Assembly (NCBI GenBank): GCA_017933995.1
Contig: JAGBKI010000039.1
Span: 1-39,189, forward strand
Source of the DNA: Bacteroidaceae bacterium
GTDB lineage: Bacteria > Bacteroidota > Bacteroidia > Bacteroidales > Bacteroidaceae
Reading direction: 5' to 3'
Length of the DNA stretch: 39,189 nt
The position numbers and the translations under genes are program-made. The notes under the pieces were generated by a model, which did not search any database, was not told where the DNA came from, and saw only the letters and a program-made list of their open reading frames with translations. Below are positions 773 through 34,282 of the stretch, in pieces; position 1 is the stretch's first letter; every line of letters begins with the position of its first letter.

Positions 773-818
773 AAGGTTTAAGAGGTTTAATGAGGTTTAA
801 GAGGTTTAAAGCTGCGCG
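773..818 (+). repeat. AGGTTTAAG 9-bp repeat array, locus 1 (3' of glyS)
   Basis: Four copies of a 9-10 bp unit (AGGTTTAAG / AGGTTTAATG) start 1 nt after the glyS stop and end in the signature GCTGCGC (811-817). The same unit and signature recur at 14688-14869 and 26559-26700. Here the usual inverted partner arm is missing and is replaced by an 18-bp array. Confidence 0.85.
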
Positions 819-821
819 CCG

Positions 822-893
822 CCCAGCCACCCCATTAAGCCCAGCCACCCCATTAAGCCCAGCCACCCCATTAAGCCCAGCCACCCCATTAAG
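822..893 (+). repeat. 18-bp tandem repeat, four perfect copies
   Basis: The unit CCCAGCCACCCCATTAAG is repeated four times without mismatch (822-839, 840-857, 858-875, 876-893), followed by a partial fifth copy to about 901. It is made of two 9-mers, CCCAGCCAC and CCCATTAAG. It lies between glyS and the FKBP lipoprotein start. It could be read in frame with the downstream gene from an ATG at 790, but that would put a Pro/Ala/Thr-rich tail before a signal peptide, so it is more likely untranslated. Confidence 0.9.
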
Positions 894-939
894 CCCAGCC
901 CTCCCCCATAAACCCCAGCACCCACCAGCCCCCCACCCG

Positions 940-6167: not shown

Positions 6168-6208
6168 TTCGCCGAGTTATATCCCCTTGTCTATGGATTC
6201 AATGAAAT

Positions 6209-6293
6209 TTCCAAGGCTTGAAACTTAAATTTCAAGGCTTGAAACTCAAATTCCAAGGGCTTGAAACTTAAATCCCAAAGGCTTGGAATTTCC
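6209..6293 (+). repeat. 21-bp direct repeats, four imperfect copies
   Basis: Four consecutive copies of a unit like TTCCAAGGCTTGAAACTTAAA start near 6209, 6230, 6251 and 6273. The last ends in GGCTTGGAATTTCC and so makes an inverted end. The array lies downstream of the acetyltransferase gene. Confidence 0.8.
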
Positions 6294-10474: not shown

Positions 10475-10580
10475 CAAAAACTTCCGAATGCACCGACGGC
10501 GCAGAGCGTTCTTTTTACGTGCGGGAACATAAGGAGGCCGACACCTTTCCGCCGGTTATCGCTCCCTTTTAGCCGTATTT

Positions 10581-10681
10581 CCAGCGGAAACACAAAGAAA
10601 AAGGCTGGTTTCCGCTGGTTATAGGCACTTTTTTAGCGTATTTCCAGCGGAAACACAGGATGAAAGGCTGGTTTCCGCTGG
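10581..10681 (+). repeat. Tandem pair of 11-bp-stem hairpins
   Basis: CCAGCGGAAAC / GTTTCCGCTGG pairs at 10581-10591 with 10608-10618 and again at 10644-10654 with 10671-10681. The second copy is a 63-bp direct repeat of the first, with loops of similar sequence. They lie just downstream of the glycosyltransferase gene but lack T tracts, so they are not typical terminators. Confidence 0.85.
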
Positions 10682-10721
10682 TTATAGCCACTTTTCTGTT
10701 AGATTTCAGCGAGAGTACGCG

Positions 10722-11444: not shown

Positions 11445-12344
11445 TCAATAGGTGTTGGCCAGCAGGGCGAGGCGGAAGTGCCGGTAGGTGTGCGCGTCGC
11501 CACAGCGCAGGCCGGGTTCGCGCAGCAGGCTGAGGCGCAGCGGGAAGCTGTGTTTGGCGCGGACGAAGCGATGGAGCAGATTGCGGCGGTCGGCGGGCAT
11601 ACGGTCGGCAAAGCCGCGCTCAATCTCTGCGGCGCGTGCTGAGCGCGAGCCGCCCCCGGCGCGCAGACGTTGCAACCGTTTGCGCCACTCGCCGAGCGCG
11701 CTGCCCGTGGCGCCGACGGCGTTGGCGGCGTGCTGGCGGTAGAGGATGTGGGGCGTGGGGTCGAAGGCGATGTGCGCACCGACGGCCTGCGCCACGCTGT
11801 ACGCCCACACGTCGTGCATCGGCAAGTAAGTGGGCGTATAGGAAAGGAGCAGGCGGCGCAGGGCGTGGTTCATCACCATCGTGCAGCCCGACACAAACTC
11901 GGCCACGAGGCTTTCGCCGAAAGTCAGCAGCGGACGGATGTCCTGCACGGCGACGGGCGCGAGGTCGGCATCGGCGATGTGGGTGGGACTGAAATAGAGC
12001 GCGGGGCTGTCGCCAGCAGTCTGCAGTTTCTCGGCGGCGGCGGCGAGTTTGTCGGGCAGCCAGTAGTCGTCCTGGTCGGCAAAGGCGTAGAGGTCAGCGT
12101 CGGCGCACTGGGCGAGCAGGCGCATAAAACCGCGCGCGGGGCCCAGGTGGTCGGTGTCGTGCAGGATGCGGAGGTTGCACCGCTCGCGGTATTCGTCGAA
12201 GATGGCGGGCGTCGTGTCGGTGGAGCCATCGTCGCGCACGGTCAGCGACACGTCGACACCCTCCTGGGCAAGGATGCTGTCGAGCTGCTGGCGCAGGTAG
12301 CGCGCACCGTTATAGGTGGCCATCAGGACGTTGACGTGGGGCAT
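11445..12344 (-). CDS. Family 2 glycosyltransferase
   Basis: The 299-residue protein starts MPHVNVLMATYNGARYLRQQ. It contains LTVRDDGSTDTTPAIFDEY (35-53) and AFADQDDYWLPDKL with the metal site, then MHDVWAYSVAQAVGA and ILYRQHAANAVGA. This layout resembles RfbF-like rhamnosyltransferases of polysaccharide synthesis. The C-terminal 90 residues are Arg-rich and probably membrane-associating. It is the first gene of a two-gene operon downstream of murB, separated from it by a repeat element. No other polysaccharide genes lie in the window. Confidence 0.92.
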   Translation of the reverse strand: MPHVNVLMATYNGARYLRQQLDSILAQEGVDVSLTVRDDGSTDTTPAIFDEYRERCNLRILHDTDHLGPARGFMRLLAQCADADLYAFADQDDYWLPDKLAAAAEKLQTAGDSPALYFSPTHIADADLAPVAVQDIRPLLTFGESLVAEFVSGCTMVMNHALRRLLLSYTPTYLPMHDVWAYSVAQAVGAHIAFDPTPHILYRQHAANAVGATGSALGEWRKRLQRLRAGGGSRSARAAEIERGFADRMPADRRNLLHRFVRAKHSFPLRLSLLREPGLRCGDAHTYRHFRLALLANTY

Positions 12345-12350
12345 AAATAT

Positions 12351-12520
12351 GAGGTTGAATGAAGTTGAAAAGGTTTAAGAGGTTTAAGCCTTCCGGCGCG
12401 GGCGAGGTGGGAGTTATGGTAGTTATGGGATTTATTAGGAGATGGGGAGGCTGGGGATTTCTGGTGTTGCCGAAGCCGGACGGATTAAACCTCTTAAACC
12501 CCTTAAACCTCCTTAAACCT
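12351..12520 (-). repeat. AGGTTTAAG repeat element, locus 2 (3' of murB)
   Basis: On the minus strand, starting 1 nt after the murB stop, there are four copies of AGGTTTAAG-like units, then ATCCGTCCGGC, a spacer of about 80 nt, and an inverted arm (plus-strand AAGGTTTAAGAGGTTTAAGCC near 12370-12390 followed by TTCCGGC). The two arms can pair. Confidence 0.85.
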
Positions 12521-12521
12521 T

Positions 12522-13541
12522 TTATATGAAATTCACTTCCGGCTGTATCTCGATGCCGAACTTGGCGCGAACGGTGTCGCGGACGGCGTCGCTCAGGGCC
12601 ACGATGTCGGCTCCCGTCGCCCCGCCGTGGTTGACCAGGACGAGTGCCTGGCGCTCGTACACGCCTGCCGGGCCGAGGCGGCGGCCTTTCCAGCCGCACT
12701 GCTCGATGAGCCACCCGGCGGGCACTTTGACGCCGCCCTCAACGTCGTAGTGGGGCGCGGCGGGATAGTCGGCCTGCAGGAGGGCGAACGCCTCGCGGCT
12801 GATGACTGGGTTCACGAAGAACGAGCCGCCGTTGCCCAGTTCCGTGGGTTCGGGCAGTTTGGCACGGCGGATGTCGATGATCAACTGGCGCAGCGCCTGC
12901 GGTGTGAGTTTGCCCTCCAGGCCGCGCGCGGCGATTTCGCGTCCCAGCGAGCCGTAGCCCGTGGCGGGGCGGAACGTCGTGGAGAGGCGGAAGGTGACAG
13001 TGGTGACGGCGTAGCGCCCTCGCAGTTCCTGCTTGAACGCGCTCTGGCGGTAGGCGTAGCGCAGTTCGTCGTGGGTGAAGACGCGCGTTTCGCCCGTGGC
13101 CAGTTCGATGGCCGCGACGCGCTCGATGAACTGCTCGGCCTCGGCGCCGTATGCGCCGATGTTCTGCACCGCCGAAGCGCCGACCGTGCCGGGGATGTAG
13201 GAGAGGTTCTCCAGCCCGTACCAGCCGTTGCGGACGCAGAAGTCTACAAACTCGTCCCACACCCACCCGCTGCCTGCGATGACGTAGGCGGTGCCGTCGT
13301 CGCGGACGTCGGCGGCCCAGCGGGTAATGTTGCTGTGGAGCACGGTGCCGGGATAGTCGCGGGTGAAGAGCAGGTTGCTGCCTGCGCCGACGCACAGCAC
13401 GGACTCGCCGGGATGGTCGCGGCGCAGGGCGTCGAGGATGGCGCGCAGCCGGGTCTCGCTGTCGTATTCGGCGAAACGGGCGCAGCGCACGTCGATGCCG
13501 AAGGTGTTATAGGGTAGCAGGGATTGGTTTTCGGTCCACAT
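12522..13541 (-). CDS. murB: UDP-N-acetylenolpyruvoylglucosamine reductase
   Basis: This FAD enzyme reduces UDP-GlcNAc-enolpyruvate to UDP-MurNAc, the second committed step of peptidoglycan precursor synthesis. The 339-residue protein shows NTFGIDV near the start, VLCVGAGSNLLFTRDYPG (FAD binding), YIPGTVGASAVQNIGAYGAE, and GNGGSFFVNPV carrying the active-site Ser. The C-terminal part with WLIEQCGWKGRRLGPAGVY is of the long, E. coli-like (type I) class. A promoter box at 13569-13576 leaves the ATGs at 13556 and 13541 available; 13541 (MWTENQSLLPYNTFG) gives a normal leader. It is divergent from pheS. Confidence 0.95.
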   Translation of the reverse strand: MWTENQSLLPYNTFGIDVRCARFAEYDSETRLRAILDALRRDHPGESVLCVGAGSNLLFTRDYPGTVLHSNITRWAADVRDDGTAYVIAGSGWVWDEFVDFCVRNGWYGLENLSYIPGTVGASAVQNIGAYGAEAEQFIERVAAIELATGETRVFTHDELRYAYRQSAFKQELRGRYAVTTVTFRLSTTFRPATGYGSLGREIAARGLEGKLTPQALRQLIIDIRRAKLPEPTELGNGGSFFVNPVISREAFALLQADYPAAPHYDVEGGVKVPAGWLIEQCGWKGRRLGPAGVYERQALVLVNHGGATGADIVALSDAVRDTVRAKFGIEIQPEVNFI

Positions 13542-13568
13542 CGTTGCCGGTTGCATAGGTTTGGTGCG

Positions 13569-13576
13569 CAAAAGTA
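13569..13576 (-). promoter_or_regulatory. Promoter -7 box (TACTTTTG) for murB
   Basis: Minus-strand TACTTTTGC, 28 nt before the ATG at 13541 and 13 nt before the alternative ATG at 13556, which favours the former. Confidence 0.65.
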
Positions 13577-13619
13577 CGGCTTTTCCACTGCCCACGGGCG
13601 GTTTTCTGCGAAAATGCAC

Positions 13620-13627
13620 TAACTTTG
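13620..13627 (+). promoter_or_regulatory. Promoter -7 box (TAACTTTG) for pheS
   Basis: TAACTTTGC, 38 nt before the pheS ATG. The box is only 44 nt from the opposing murB box, so the two promoters are back to back. Confidence 0.65.
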
Positions 13628-13664
13628 CGCGCTGAAAACCAAAAACATCATCAGACACACTGCT

Positions 13665-14684
13665 ATGTTAGAACAAATACGCCGCGTGCGCGAGAGCCTT
13701 TCGGAACTGAAGGCCGCCAACGAGCAGGAACTGGAAGCACTCCGTATTAAATATATGAGCAAAAAAGGTTTGCTCAACGACCTGATGGCGCGCTTCCGCG
13801 AAGTGCCCGCCGAGCAGAAGCGCGAAGTGGGTATGCGCATCAACGAACTGAAAACCGCCGTGCAGGAGCGCATCGACGCGTTGCGCGGCCAGCTGGCGCG
13901 CACCGAGACGGTCGACGACGACCTCGACCTGACGCGCACGCCCTATCCCGAGCCGCTGGGTTCGCGCCACCCCATCACACTGGTGCGCGACGAAATCCTG
14001 CGCATCTTCCAGCGTCTGGGCTTCAGCATCGCCGAGGGACCGGAGGTGGAGGACGACTGGCACGTATTCTCGTCGCTCAACTTCGCCGCCGACCACCCCG
14101 CCCGCGACATGCAGGACACGTTCTTCGTGGAGCAGCAGCCCGACGTCGTGCTGCGCACGCACACCAGTTCGGTGCAGAGCCGTGTGATGGAGACGCAGCA
14201 GCCGCCCATCCGCGTCGTCTGCCCGGGCCGCGTCTACCGCAACGAGGCCATCTCGGCGCGCGCCCACTGCTTCTTCCACCAGATTGAGGGCCTGTACATC
14301 GACAAGGGCGTGTCGTTCACCGACCTGAAGCAGGTGCTCCTGACGTTCGCCCGCGAAATGTTCGGCGCCGACACGAAGATACGCCTGCGCCCCAGCTACT
14401 TCCCCTTCACCGAGCCGAGCGCCGAGATGGACATCTCGTGCAACATCTGCGGCGGCAAGGGCTGCGGTTTCTGCAAACACACGGGCTGGGTGGAAATCCT
14501 GGGCTGCGGCATGGTGGACCCCAACGTGCTTCGCGCGGGCGGCATCGACCCCGACGTCTACTCGGGCTACGCCTTCGGCCTCGGCGTGGAGCGCATCACG
14601 AACCTGAAGTACCAGGTGAGCGACCTGCGCCTCTTCTCCGAAAACGACGTGCGCTTCCTTGAGCAGTTCACGGCGGCACACTAA
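13665..14684 (+). CDS. pheS: Phenylalanine--tRNA ligase alpha subunit
   Basis: The 339-residue catalytic alpha chain pairs with PheT (not in the window) to charge tRNA-Phe. The N-terminal 85 residues are the coiled-coil tRNA-binding arm. The class II core shows HPITLVRDEILRIFQRLGF, VLRTHTSSVQSRVM, RVYRNEAISARAHCFFHQIE (motif 2) and FGLGVERITNLKYQ (motif 3). A Cys-rich insert CNICGGKGCGFCKHTGW occurs before the last motifs, as in Bacteroidetes PheS. It has its own promoter and is followed 3 nt after the stop by a large repeat palindrome that may end the transcript. Confidence 0.97.
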   Translation: MLEQIRRVRESLSELKAANEQELEALRIKYMSKKGLLNDLMARFREVPAEQKREVGMRINELKTAVQERIDALRGQLARTETVDDDLDLTRTPYPEPLGSRHPITLVRDEILRIFQRLGFSIAEGPEVEDDWHVFSSLNFAADHPARDMQDTFFVEQQPDVVLRTHTSSVQSRVMETQQPPIRVVCPGRVYRNEAISARAHCFFHQIEGLYIDKGVSFTDLKQVLLTFAREMFGADTKIRLRPSYFPFTEPSAEMDISCNICGGKGCGFCKHTGWVEILGCGMVDPNVLRAGGIDPDVYSGYAFGLGVERITNLKYQVSDLRLFSENDVRFLEQFTAAH

Positions 14685-14687
14685 TTT

Positions 14688-14869
14688 GAGGTTTAATGAG
14701 GTTTAAGAGGTTTAATGAGGTTTAAGCCGTTCGGCCTTGGACAAGGTTTAAGAGGTTTAAGGAGTTTAAGAGGTTTAATGCTTCGCAACGATTGCACACC
14801 GAGGCCGGATGGCTTAAACCTCTTAAACCTTATTAAACCTCTTAAACCTCATTAAACCTCTTAAACTTT
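14688..14869 (+). repeat. AGGTTTAAG repeat palindrome, locus 3 (3' of pheS)
   Basis: A left arm of four GAGGTTTAA-like units (14688-14725) ends in AAGCCGTTCGGCC; a second block (14750-14785) ends in the TGCTTCGC signature; then GAGGCCGGATGG and a right arm of six inverted units (TTAAACCTC, 14813-14866). Left and right arms are complementary over nearly 40 bp. It fills the whole gap between pheS and the nucleotidyltransferase gene, whose start is 10 nt away. Confidence 0.92.
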
Positions 14870-14878
14870 GCAAAAGTT

Positions 14879-15625
14879 ATGAAATCCCTCGTCTTCGCCG
14901 CCGGCCTGGGAACGCGGCTGCGGCCGCTGACCGACACGATGCCCAAGGCCCTGGTGCCGGTGGGCGGCAGGCCGCTGCTCGACATCACCCTGCGCCGCCT
15001 CATCAGCGAGGGCGCGACGGAGGTGGTGGTGAACGTCCATCACTTCGCCGACCAGGTGACGGCCTACCTCGCCGCCCGCGACTACGGCATCCCCGTGCGC
15101 GTCAGCGACGAGACGCGCCTGCTGCTCGACACCGGCGGCGGCCTGCGCAAAGCCCTCGCCCTCTTCGAGACCGAGCCTGACGCCCCCATCCTCATCCACA
15201 ACGTCGACATCCTCAGCGACGCGCCGCTCGCCCGCTTCTACGCCGCCTGCCGCGAGGCCGACGCCGCCCTGCTGGTCAGCCCCCGCCCCTCCACACGCCA
15301 GCTCTACTTCGACAACGCGATGCGCCTGCGCGGCTGGCAGAACCTCACCACCGGCGCCACGCGCAGCCCCCTACCCCACTTCAGCCCCGACGCCCACACG
15401 CCCTACGCCTTCAGCGGCATCCACCTCTTCTCGCCCCGCCTGCTCCGCGCGCTGGAGGCATACGGCGAGCGTTTCCCCATTATGGACTTCTACCTCGGCG
15501 AGTGCGCCCGCGCCGACATACGCGGCCACCTGCTGCCCGCCCTGCGCCTGATGGACGTGGGCAAGGCCGACACGCTGGAACGCGCCAAAGACTTCGCCGA
15601 GGAACTTGGACTTGCAACGCAATAG
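14879..15625 (+). CDS. Sugar-1-phosphate nucleotidyltransferase
   Basis: A 248-residue NTP-transferase-fold enzyme that joins a sugar-1-phosphate to an NTP. The N-terminus FAAGLGTRLRPLTDTMPKAL (6-25) is the nucleotide-binding signature with the catalytic Arg and Lys. VVVNVHHFADQV, ETRLLLDTGGGLRKAL and LIHNVDILSD (metal-binding Asp) follow. This pattern is close to mannose-1-phosphate guanylyltransferase-like and MurU (MurNAc-1-phosphate uridylyltransferase) proteins. MurU would fit peptidoglycan recycling, but the usual AmgK-like kinase partner is not next to it here, so the sugar is left open. It is followed 12 nt later by the HsdR-domain gene. Confidence 0.9.
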   Translation: MKSLVFAAGLGTRLRPLTDTMPKALVPVGGRPLLDITLRRLISEGATEVVVNVHHFADQVTAYLAARDYGIPVRVSDETRLLLDTGGGLRKALALFETEPDAPILIHNVDILSDAPLARFYAACREADAALLVSPRPSTRQLYFDNAMRLRGWQNLTTGATRSPLPHFSPDAHTPYAFSGIHLFSPRLLRALEAYGERFPIMDFYLGECARADIRGHLLPALRLMDVGKADTLERAKDFAEELGLATQ

Positions 15626-26558: not shown

Positions 26559-26700
26559 TAAGGTTTAAGAGGTTTAATGAGGTTTAAGAGGTTTAATGCT
26601 GCGCGACTACAGCCGGACGGATTAAACCTTTCAACCTGTTCAACCTTGCAAGAAGCCGGACGGATTAAACTTCTTAAACTTCTTAAACCTATTAAACCTT
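26559..26700 (-). repeat. AGGTTTAAG repeat element, locus 4 (between nqrC and nqrD)
   Basis: On the minus strand, 7 nt after the nqrC stop: AGGTTTAATAGGTTTAAG-type units ending ATCCGTCCGGC, then a second degenerate block (AGGTTGAACAGGTTGAAAGG) again ending ATCCGTCCGGC, then GCGCAGCA and an inverted arm of four TTAAACCTC units. The element has the same two signatures (GCCGGACGG and TGCTGCGC) as loci 2 and 3 or 1 and 3, respectively. Confidence 0.92.
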
Positions 26701-30333: not shown

Positions 30334-30341
30334 TATCTTTG
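30334..30341 (+). promoter_or_regulatory. Promoter-like -7 boxes in the mlaE-side repeat
   Basis: TATCTTTG in copy 1 fits TAnnTTTG; copies 2 and 3 have CATCTTTG (30418-30425 and 30502-30509), one base off, with TTTC about 20 nt upstream. All read toward mlaE at 30633. Confidence 0.5.
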
Positions 30342-30538
30342 CCGCGAAGCGAAGATGCGCAGCGGCTCAGCAGAGTAAAACAGCTTCGCGATGTTTCCCT
30401 CTGCGTTCGCCTTGCAGCATCTTTGCCGCGAAGCGAAGATGCGCGGCGGCTCAGCAGAGTAAAACAGCTTCGCAATGTTTTCCTCTGCGTTCGCCTTGCA
30501 GCATCTTTGCCGCGAAGCGAAGATGCGCGGCGGCTTTT
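30334..30538 (+). repeat. 84-bp tandem repeat with promoter-like boxes, 2.4 copies, upstream of mlaE
   Basis: Units begin at 30335, 30419 and 30503 (period 84); the third is cut at about 30538. Each starts ATCTTTGCCGCGAAGCGAAG and contains GCGTTCGCCTTGCAG. Reverse-complemented, it aligns with the 82-bp unit at 2487-2711 (shared GCAAGGCGA[AG]CGCA, GAGCCGC[AC]GCG and ATCTTCG blocks). It lies in the gene-free stretch 30000-30632 between the divergent nqr operon and mlaEF. Confidence 0.85.
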
Positions 30539-34040: not shown

Positions 34041-34107
34041 TTCTGCAAATTAAGGCTTAATTTGCAGAAACTAAGGCTTAGTTTATACAAACTTAGGCTT
34101 AATTTGT
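34041..34107. repeat. Three consecutive palindromes built on TTAAGGCTTAA
   Basis: TTCTGCAAATTAAG / CTTAATTTGCAGAA around a single central base (34041-34069), AAACTAAGGCTTAGTTT (34068-34084), and ACAAACTTAGGCTTAATTTG (from 34087). The three share the core AAGGCTTA or AGGCTTA. They lie in the gene-free stretch between the two tRNA genes (33924-34282), where nothing else was found. Confidence 0.82.
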
Positions 34108-34282
34108 AGATTTGCTTGGGTATAGACAGGATTTAAGCCGCAACAGACACGTTTCAGCCCACAGCCGCTGCGATTTTCACCGCATCGGCCAAAAGCGCCA
34201 AAGGGAAAATGCGGTTTTACAGGCCGCAATACGCCCGCCGAACCTGTTTTTTATACATTTTATGCTTTTTCCGGCCAAAAGT

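Follow-up and report, generated by a model that had tools for sequence, protein, structure and literature searches.

Short-repeat arrays behind stop codons of a Bacteroidaceae genome and their suggested kinship with S23-bearing ribosomal RNA inserts

The window studied here is a stretch of 39,189 nt, equal to contig C31 of a 2.48 Mb genome which is assembled in 66 contigs and is 83.7% complete. Four arrays of a short unit, AGGTTTAA, are situated in it behind the genes glyS, murB, pheS and nqrC, whose names were verified with NCBIfam. As originally predicted, all four begin 1–8 nt behind the stop codon of the respective gene; their features are listed in Table 1. The unit was counted 28 times in the window, while 0.53 occurrences were expected from 100 dinucleotide shuffles, of which the largest count was 3. 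The box GCCGGACGGNTTAAAC, with up to two mismatches allowed, was found 6 times against 0.06 expected. The arrays had been described as starting alike on the gene strand. This is correct for AGGTTTAA at all four loci, but AGGTTTAAG is found at loci 1 and 2 only, while loci 3 and 4 read AGGTTTAAT. Their common orientation in four genes also stands, but it follows largely from the inverted architecture, in which both arms, when read inward from either end, give AGGTTTAA. The inverted partner arms announced for loci 2, 3 and 4 were all mapped. At locus 1 a C-rich 18-bp array is the partner, in place of a reverse-complement arm. Locus 4 is situated within the nqr operon, at the nqrC-nqrD junction.

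Table 1. Parts of the four array loci in the window
Locus	Feature	Positions	Strand	
1, downstream of glyS	Stop-side array, 4 AGGTTTAA units of 9/10 bp, from 2 nt after stop	774..810	+	
1	GC box GCTGCGCGCC	811..820	+	
1	C-rich array GCCCAGCCACCCCATTAA, 18 bp x 4.4 plus remnants, sense strand, in place of reverse-complement arm	821..923	+	
2, murB to glycosyltransferase-like gene	Stop-side array, 1 nt past murB stop	12485..12520	-	
2	Stop-side GC box (GCCGGACGG on + strand)	12475..12483	-	
2	Loop, C-rich on sense (-) strand	12398..12474	-	
2	Start-side box (12388-12397) and inverted arm	12353..12397	-	
3, pheS to murU-like gene	Stop-side array, 4 units, first AGGTTTAA 4 nt after pheS stop	14688..14725	+	
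3	Core: box GCCGTTCGGC, second short array 14744-14778, box GCTTCGC, loop, box GCCGGATGG	14726..14812	+	
3	Inverted (start-side) arm, 6 units	14813..14867	+	
4, nqrC to nqrD	Stop-side array, 8 nt past nqrC stop	26664..26699	-	
4	Core: boxes GCCGGACGG (26655, 26612), GGTTGAA units, GCTGCGCGAC (26598)	26598..26663	-	
4	Inverted (start-side) arm, end 20 nt before nqrD start	26561..26597	-	

Single-strand folds are predicted to be strong at loci 2–4 and weak at locus 1. The whole element at locus 3 folds with -95.5 kcal/mol (z -12.4), and z values of -6.7 and -4.4 were obtained for the RNA of loci 2 and 4, respectively, whereas the C-rich array of locus 1 is predicted to pair weakly with the stop-side array (z -2.75). 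A near-copy of the core of locus 3 is present at G000 C13:18085-18271. Rfam matches above the gathering threshold comprised two tRNAs in the window, none at the arrays and no rRNA. The window also holds tandem arrays with larger units, of 82 and 84 bp at 2487-2718 and 30335-30535, which perhaps form another repeat family, and of 63, 21 and 21–22 bp at 10546-10695, 34047-34110 and 6205-6285, respectively. A sequence like the 34047 unit was also seen upstream of the element at C58:17274.

The element, designated family A, occurs in about 60 copies of 100–200 bp in the genome. The pattern GGTTTAAN{1,2}AGGTTTAA gave 162 matches genome-wide and its reversed control 0, and the box GCCGGACGGNTTAAAC with up to two mismatches gave 79 against 7. 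Along the genes, a typical copy consists of the stop codon, AGGTTTAA plus 1–2 nt repeated 2–6 times, a TCCGTCCGGC-like box, a loop, a GCCGGACGGA-like box, TTAAACCTC repeated 2–6 times, and the start codon of the next gene. The family-A unit is 9/10 bp long and that of family B 7 bp. Some loops are occupied by C-rich arrays of CCCATAAAGCCCAG, all 14 of them on the sense strand, and four family-A junctions end with TAACTGAT arrays before the start codon. Among the 28 pairs of elements with similar centres, which are mutually dependent, 26 agreed in how they are oriented relative to the gene.

Genes were called with a purpose-made simple codon-usage gene caller. Out of 62 clusters listed, 53 rows passed a stricter filter, and the remainder comprised one false and eight real clusters, the latter with seven codirectional junctions and one convergent, C52:10526 being among them. 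Two of the 53 rows, both on C63, belong to a single element, the S23-bearing one described below, and represent its arms. The rows were placed in 47 codirectional, 4 divergent and 2 convergent junctions (48, 4 and 1 under looser neighbour rules), and one row counted as convergent, C57:4360, may be codirectional with an uncalled gene. The background comprises 223 codirectional, 24 divergent and 38 convergent spacers, and the codirectional excess judged by count alone is not significant (p 0.09). Judged by length, the placement is clear-cut. Junctions with less than 40 nt of residual spacer hold 29 of the 53 rows, while 2.0 were expected by bp and 15.6 by count; for the two convergent rows the expectations were 9.0 and 7.1. 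The association with stop codons extends from the window to the whole genome. Among the 47 codirectional rows, the edge on the stop side lies within 10 nt of the stop codon in 35, and the far arm is also near the start of the next gene, less tightly, with 15 edges within 10 nt. Arrays before starts as frequent as behind stops, which would have spoken against the original prediction, were not observed: the stop is closer in 37 rows and the start in 9.

The two arms of an element resembled each other no more than arms taken from separate elements did (fixed 26-nt inner arms, 4476 of 5000 permutations reaching at least the own value), and compensatory pairing is therefore not supported. Differences between stop-arm and start-arm units were not significant. 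The target-site duplication expected of a MITE of a DDE transposon was not significant in 42 two-armed elements; the mean common flank word was 4.02 compared with 3.78 in shuffled pairings, of which 23 out of 300 reached 4.02.

The genus of this genome is most likely Alloprevotella, because the congeneric species G003 is 92.3% identical to Alloprevotella sp. oral taxon 473 over 2,581 bp. From motif searches family A appears nearly unique to the genome: the pattern AGGTTTAANNAGGTTTAA was found in one of 58 genus genomes, the own one, and the 16-mer GGTTTAAGAGGTTTAA, with 98 matches here, occurs once or twice each in 6 of 398 other genomes of the family. The insertion specificity which the original prediction had offered as one option gained support from the relatives. 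A match to nqrC is present in 51 other genus genomes, and 29 of their loci were examined. In all 30 loci, including ours, nqrC and nqrD are adjacent, and the 29 others have a gap of 2–107 nt without such an array. Several further junctions are likewise short and empty in relatives. The pheS-murU junction is a 15-nt gap in G037, and in G015 it contains convergent CATTGACC arrays. Not all junctions of relatives are short or empty, as shown by 164 nt (C52:61294) and 100 nt (C52:65519) in G037 and 254 nt (C57:76771) in G015. Of nine family-A junctions with an ortholog in G015, four hold another array family there, in stretches of G015 that were mostly chosen around ATTGACC matches.

The ATTGACC unit has 55 matches in the own genome, 138 in G015 and 55 in G039, and occurs in 7 of the 58 genus genomes in all; its triple repeat was found in 30 of 399 family genomes, representing 8 of 30 genera. 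Of the 27 codirectional cases in G015, 13 have an array that reaches 5, 12 or 19 nt into the upstream gene, whose stop codon is supplied by the TGA of the unit, and 20 of the 27 junctions have a TGA stop compared with 94 of 199 in the background. In other genera about 11 of 26 ATTGACC clusters apparently fall within called genes, where most read in the stop-free GGTCAAT direction. A metagenome-assembled genome labelled Paenibacillus was found to encode a PheS 73% identical to the own Bacteroidales protein, and the label is probably wrong.

One family-A copy beyond the window, C63:22958-23515, holds a 131-aa ORF between its arms, which matches PF05635 with an E value of 1.9e-33 and is flanked by ATP-synt_A and ATP-synt_C genes (atpB-atpE). 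PF05635 is the 23S rRNA-intervening sequence protein, or S23, a four-helix-bundle protein. The C63 protein resembles XCC0516, with the structure PDB 2gsc (E 2.2e-15), and weakly the DGR protein Avd. It is the sole family-A copy with S23, and the four window copies are without an ORF. PF05635 was detected in 35 of the 58 genus genomes, in 28 of them above the cut-off. Forty genus matches had at least 52 bits; 27 were examined, the own C41 and G015 C78 being among those left out. Each flank score compared the upstream flank with the reverse complement of the downstream flank, and 477 genes from stretches of G004 and G037 served as controls. Nineteen of the 27 S23 loci scored above the 99th percentile of the controls and 24 above the 95th (Mann-Whitney p 3.8e-16), although one control gene, with a score of 112, exceeded every S23 locus. 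Under a stricter control of mismatched flanks from different genomes, 20 of the 27 lay above the 95th percentile and 11 above the 99th. There were exceptions in kind: the G002 locus has direct instead of inverted arrays, G055 is weak, and G050 passes on repeats other than short-unit arrays. An S23 ORF inside an inverted-repeat insertion, the mark of a ribosomal intervening sequence (IVS), is thus seen in the C63 copy and, at the strict threshold, in 19 of 27 genus loci. Their location is not a 23S rRNA helix, since all 27 are followed by a called protein gene on their own strand; 26 also have a same-strand neighbour upstream, and for the last none was called there. A 7-bp unit was found in 20 of 29 genus S23 flanks at the scoring threshold.

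In the own genome the arms of the S23 genes are built of AGGTTTAA (C63), ATTGACC (C65), GGAGTTA (C42) and AGTAGTTA (C19), so each of the four examined genes has its own arm family, and further arm types are found in other genomes. S23 type and arm type are correlated. For pairs of different genome and junction a Mantel test gave Pearson 0.29 and Spearman 0.22, with 0 of 3000 permutations reaching either, a result that leans on few pairs. A clear case of matching S23 and arms is G012/G026, with 64% identity of the proteins. The G016 and G021 proteins are 72% identical and have the same arms, and they sit at the nqrD-E and nqrE-F junctions, as placed from the distance to nqrC and the ends of the neighbours. 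When the 27 proteins were searched by tblastn against part of the genomic stretches, six loci were found. Five were the queries, and the sixth, in a Prevotellaceae genome, has the junction and the ATTGACC arms of the own C65 and of G015 C38. At a junction where the downstream gene starts with MGRAFEYRK, G031 and G032 have related S23 genes (69%), while that of G037 is only distantly related to them, which suggests two separate insertions. S23 is under purifying selection, with pN/pS of 0.17–0.29 in the five of six pairs where dS was saturated and dN/dS of 0.08 in the sixth. In G004, which is 99% complete, arrays are present and no strong S23 was found.

Beyond the genus, a tblastn search with the C65 protein recovered S23 on 25 of 72,556 plasmid records, and a search of phage records with one query, the C63 protein, gave none. 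Nineteen of the 25 plasmid records were examined (H8, H11, H17, H18, H21 and H25 were left out). Three plasmid stretches provided 83 control genes, and in 14 of the 19 loci the inverted flank similarity was higher than in any of these (p 8.6e-10). When mismatched plasmid flanks were the control, 14 lay above the 95th percentile and 3 above the 99th. The 14 loci above all control genes belong to Cyanobacteriota (12), Bacteroidota (1) and Spirochaetota (1). Those of Bacillota and Chloroflexota score 20 and 16, below the control maximum of 25, and short inverted repeats are visible in them by eye. In the Treponema, Planktothrix, Pseudanabaena and Anabaena loci direct similarity exceeds the inverted one. 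In most plasmid flanks the period of the longest exact tandem run is 7 bp. The operon-junction rule holds less well on plasmids, where 11 of 19 S23 genes share their strand with both annotated neighbours. S23 was seen between cas2 and cas1 on Nostoc and Anabaena plasmids (L387, L391), just before cas1 in Pseudanabaena (L389), and adjoining XisH/XisI genes on two plasmids (L376, L379).

On balance, the family-A arrays are probably the arms of ORF-less copies of S23-encoding, IVS-like insertion elements. The association of S23 with arrays, its correlation with arm type, the anatomy, location and recency of the elements and the conservation of S23 are observed; the way the element works is proposed by analogy. 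Against this reading speak the arrays of G004, which has no strong S23, the S23 loci with direct arrays or none, and the absence of co-evolution between the arms of an element. It would act like the S23-bearing intervening sequences of 23S rRNA, of which ORF-less forms also exist. The transcribed arms would form a long double-stranded stem, and RNase III would be expected to cut the predicted stems. A cut between two cistrons, as between the halves of an rRNA, would need no ligation, and insertion into operons would therefore be tolerated; junctions would be favoured as places where the cut is harmless. S23, as a relative of Avd, may be the element's own factor and would help to copy both ORF-bearing copies and the ORF-less ones, which would depend on it, much as RAYT does for REPs, possibly with RNA as the template. 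A wider reading is put forward more tentatively, and we would not call it the likelier side of the question. S23 genes and inverted short-unit arrays, mostly heptamers, might make up one class of insertion element, in at least three phyla by the strict test and in five by eye. Cyanobacterial STRRs, the GGGAATC arrays of Xanthomonas, the stop-codon arrays of this genome and the rRNA IVSs would be its members or footprints, and S23 would write or copy the arrays, perhaps via an RNA step, with an own unit in each lineage.

The alternative that survives best, though it is rather unlikely, regards the arrays as selected 3'-end regulatory elements like REPs or BIMEs, in which hairpins near the stop govern how the mRNA of the upstream cistron decays and how it is translated, and S23 is cargo. 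The close fit to stop codons, the sense-strand C-rich arrays and the co-oriented centres, with the dependence between pairs noted above, agree with it, and E. coli REPs within 15 nt of the stop were reported to stall ribosomes in the cited part of PMC12306157. A putative role of the arrays in mRNA stability, which the original prediction had named, is possible. However, the copies are not conserved, several junctions of relatives being empty or occupied by another array family, and regulation leaves the inverted arrays around S23 genes unexplained.

We consider it unlikely, too, that the arrays are neutral simple sequences which grow by slippage, spread by recombination and are placed by purifying selection, with the S23 link reflecting a shared tolerance of spacers. 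The patchy occurrence of ATTGACC among family genomes, its apparent presence inside called genes of other genera and the missing target-site duplication would suit such a process. Selection alone, however, predicts that convergent and long spacers are the richest per bp, and the reverse was observed; moreover, S23 flanks exceed the controls and arm type tracks S23 type.

Intrinsic termination, also raised by the original prediction, found no support and is very improbable. Long hairpins right behind stop codons speak for it, but in the region 12300-15000, to which this search was confined, no hairpin with a T-tract was found at loci 2 and 3, and the 2 terminator-like sites present (3.0 expected) are not at an array. 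Copies lie within the nqr and atp operons, and the rarity between convergent genes makes a terminator role unlikely. Equally improbable is that the arrays are REPs mobilised by a RAYT (Y1_Tnp) transposase: Y1_Tnp domains occur in 28 of 58 genus genomes, with 5 in the own one (matches L306 and L308, located within very long ORFs, are possibly spurious), but no family-A or family-B array adjoins these 5 or 2 further loci in G015, the nearest being a single B unit at -802 and an A array at a distance of about 1.5 kb, and RAYTs are described in the cited part of PMC2817692 as always REP-flanked. The Y1_Tnp gene on C61 of the own genome is flanked by other palindromes, of the GACGCTTTCAGCGTC type, perhaps its genuine REPs.

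Reading family A as arms of S23 elements would matter beyond this genome. Heptamer arrays near stops and S23 proteins are each without a known function in the cited parts of PMC4692102 and PMC4990558. If S23 is the factor that spreads heptamer arrays, both puzzles would merge into a single system that can be tested, comparable to REP and RAYT. Many operon junctions would then carry inserts that may set the expression of neighbour genes, and such elements could be found by searching around S23 genes. Besides the heptamers of Coxiella (PMC4990558, cited in part), no link between S23 and heptamer arrays appeared among the literature matches listed, which cover the field partially.

Several known systems resemble the elements described here. 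Like REP/RAYT systems and BIMEs, they are dispersed palindromes behind stops, with a gene-bearing copy and with correlated arm and protein types, but no link to a Y1 transposase was found and the arms consist of tandem short units. TAACTGA direct repeats have the same core as the TAACTGAT arrays before starts in four family-A junctions; they are, however, mostly single start-codon-proximal arrays in the cited part of PMC4679880. Similar, too, are the GGGAATC arrays of Xanthomonas, the GGGGA(C/T)T arrays of Nostoc and the cyanobacterial STRRs, with short tandem units mostly at codirectional junctions, near or overlapping stops (PMC4692102, in the part cited). In Xanthomonas the GGGAATC heptamers form inverted pairs near or over stop codons, without a known function according to the same part of PMC4692102, and inverted pairs are common to that genus and to this genome. 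By the description of STRR/LSSR repeats of the GGGAATC type, family A agrees in its short tandem units, convergent pairs, proximity to stops and mostly intergenic location; it departs in the unit, which is 9/10 bp instead of 7 bp and not a G4 repeat. No protein is tied to the GGGAATC and GGGGA(C/T)T arrays, and no general association with mobile elements is reported for them, in the cited part of PMC4692102. The Coxiella IVS is an insert with an S23 ORF, heptamer repeats before the ORF and excision by RNase III, and its S23 protein seems not to be made (PMC4990558, in the part cited). The elements of this study differ from the 23S rRNA IVSs of Leptospira, Coxiella and others in lying at junctions of protein genes, in reaching about 60 copies of one family and in having arms of tandem short units, and the RNase III cut is predicted for them. 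What they share with these IVSs is an inverted-repeat insertion whose loop holds the S23/PF05635 ORF, and our results suggest that short-repeat arrays and ribosomal RNA inserts are one kind of element.
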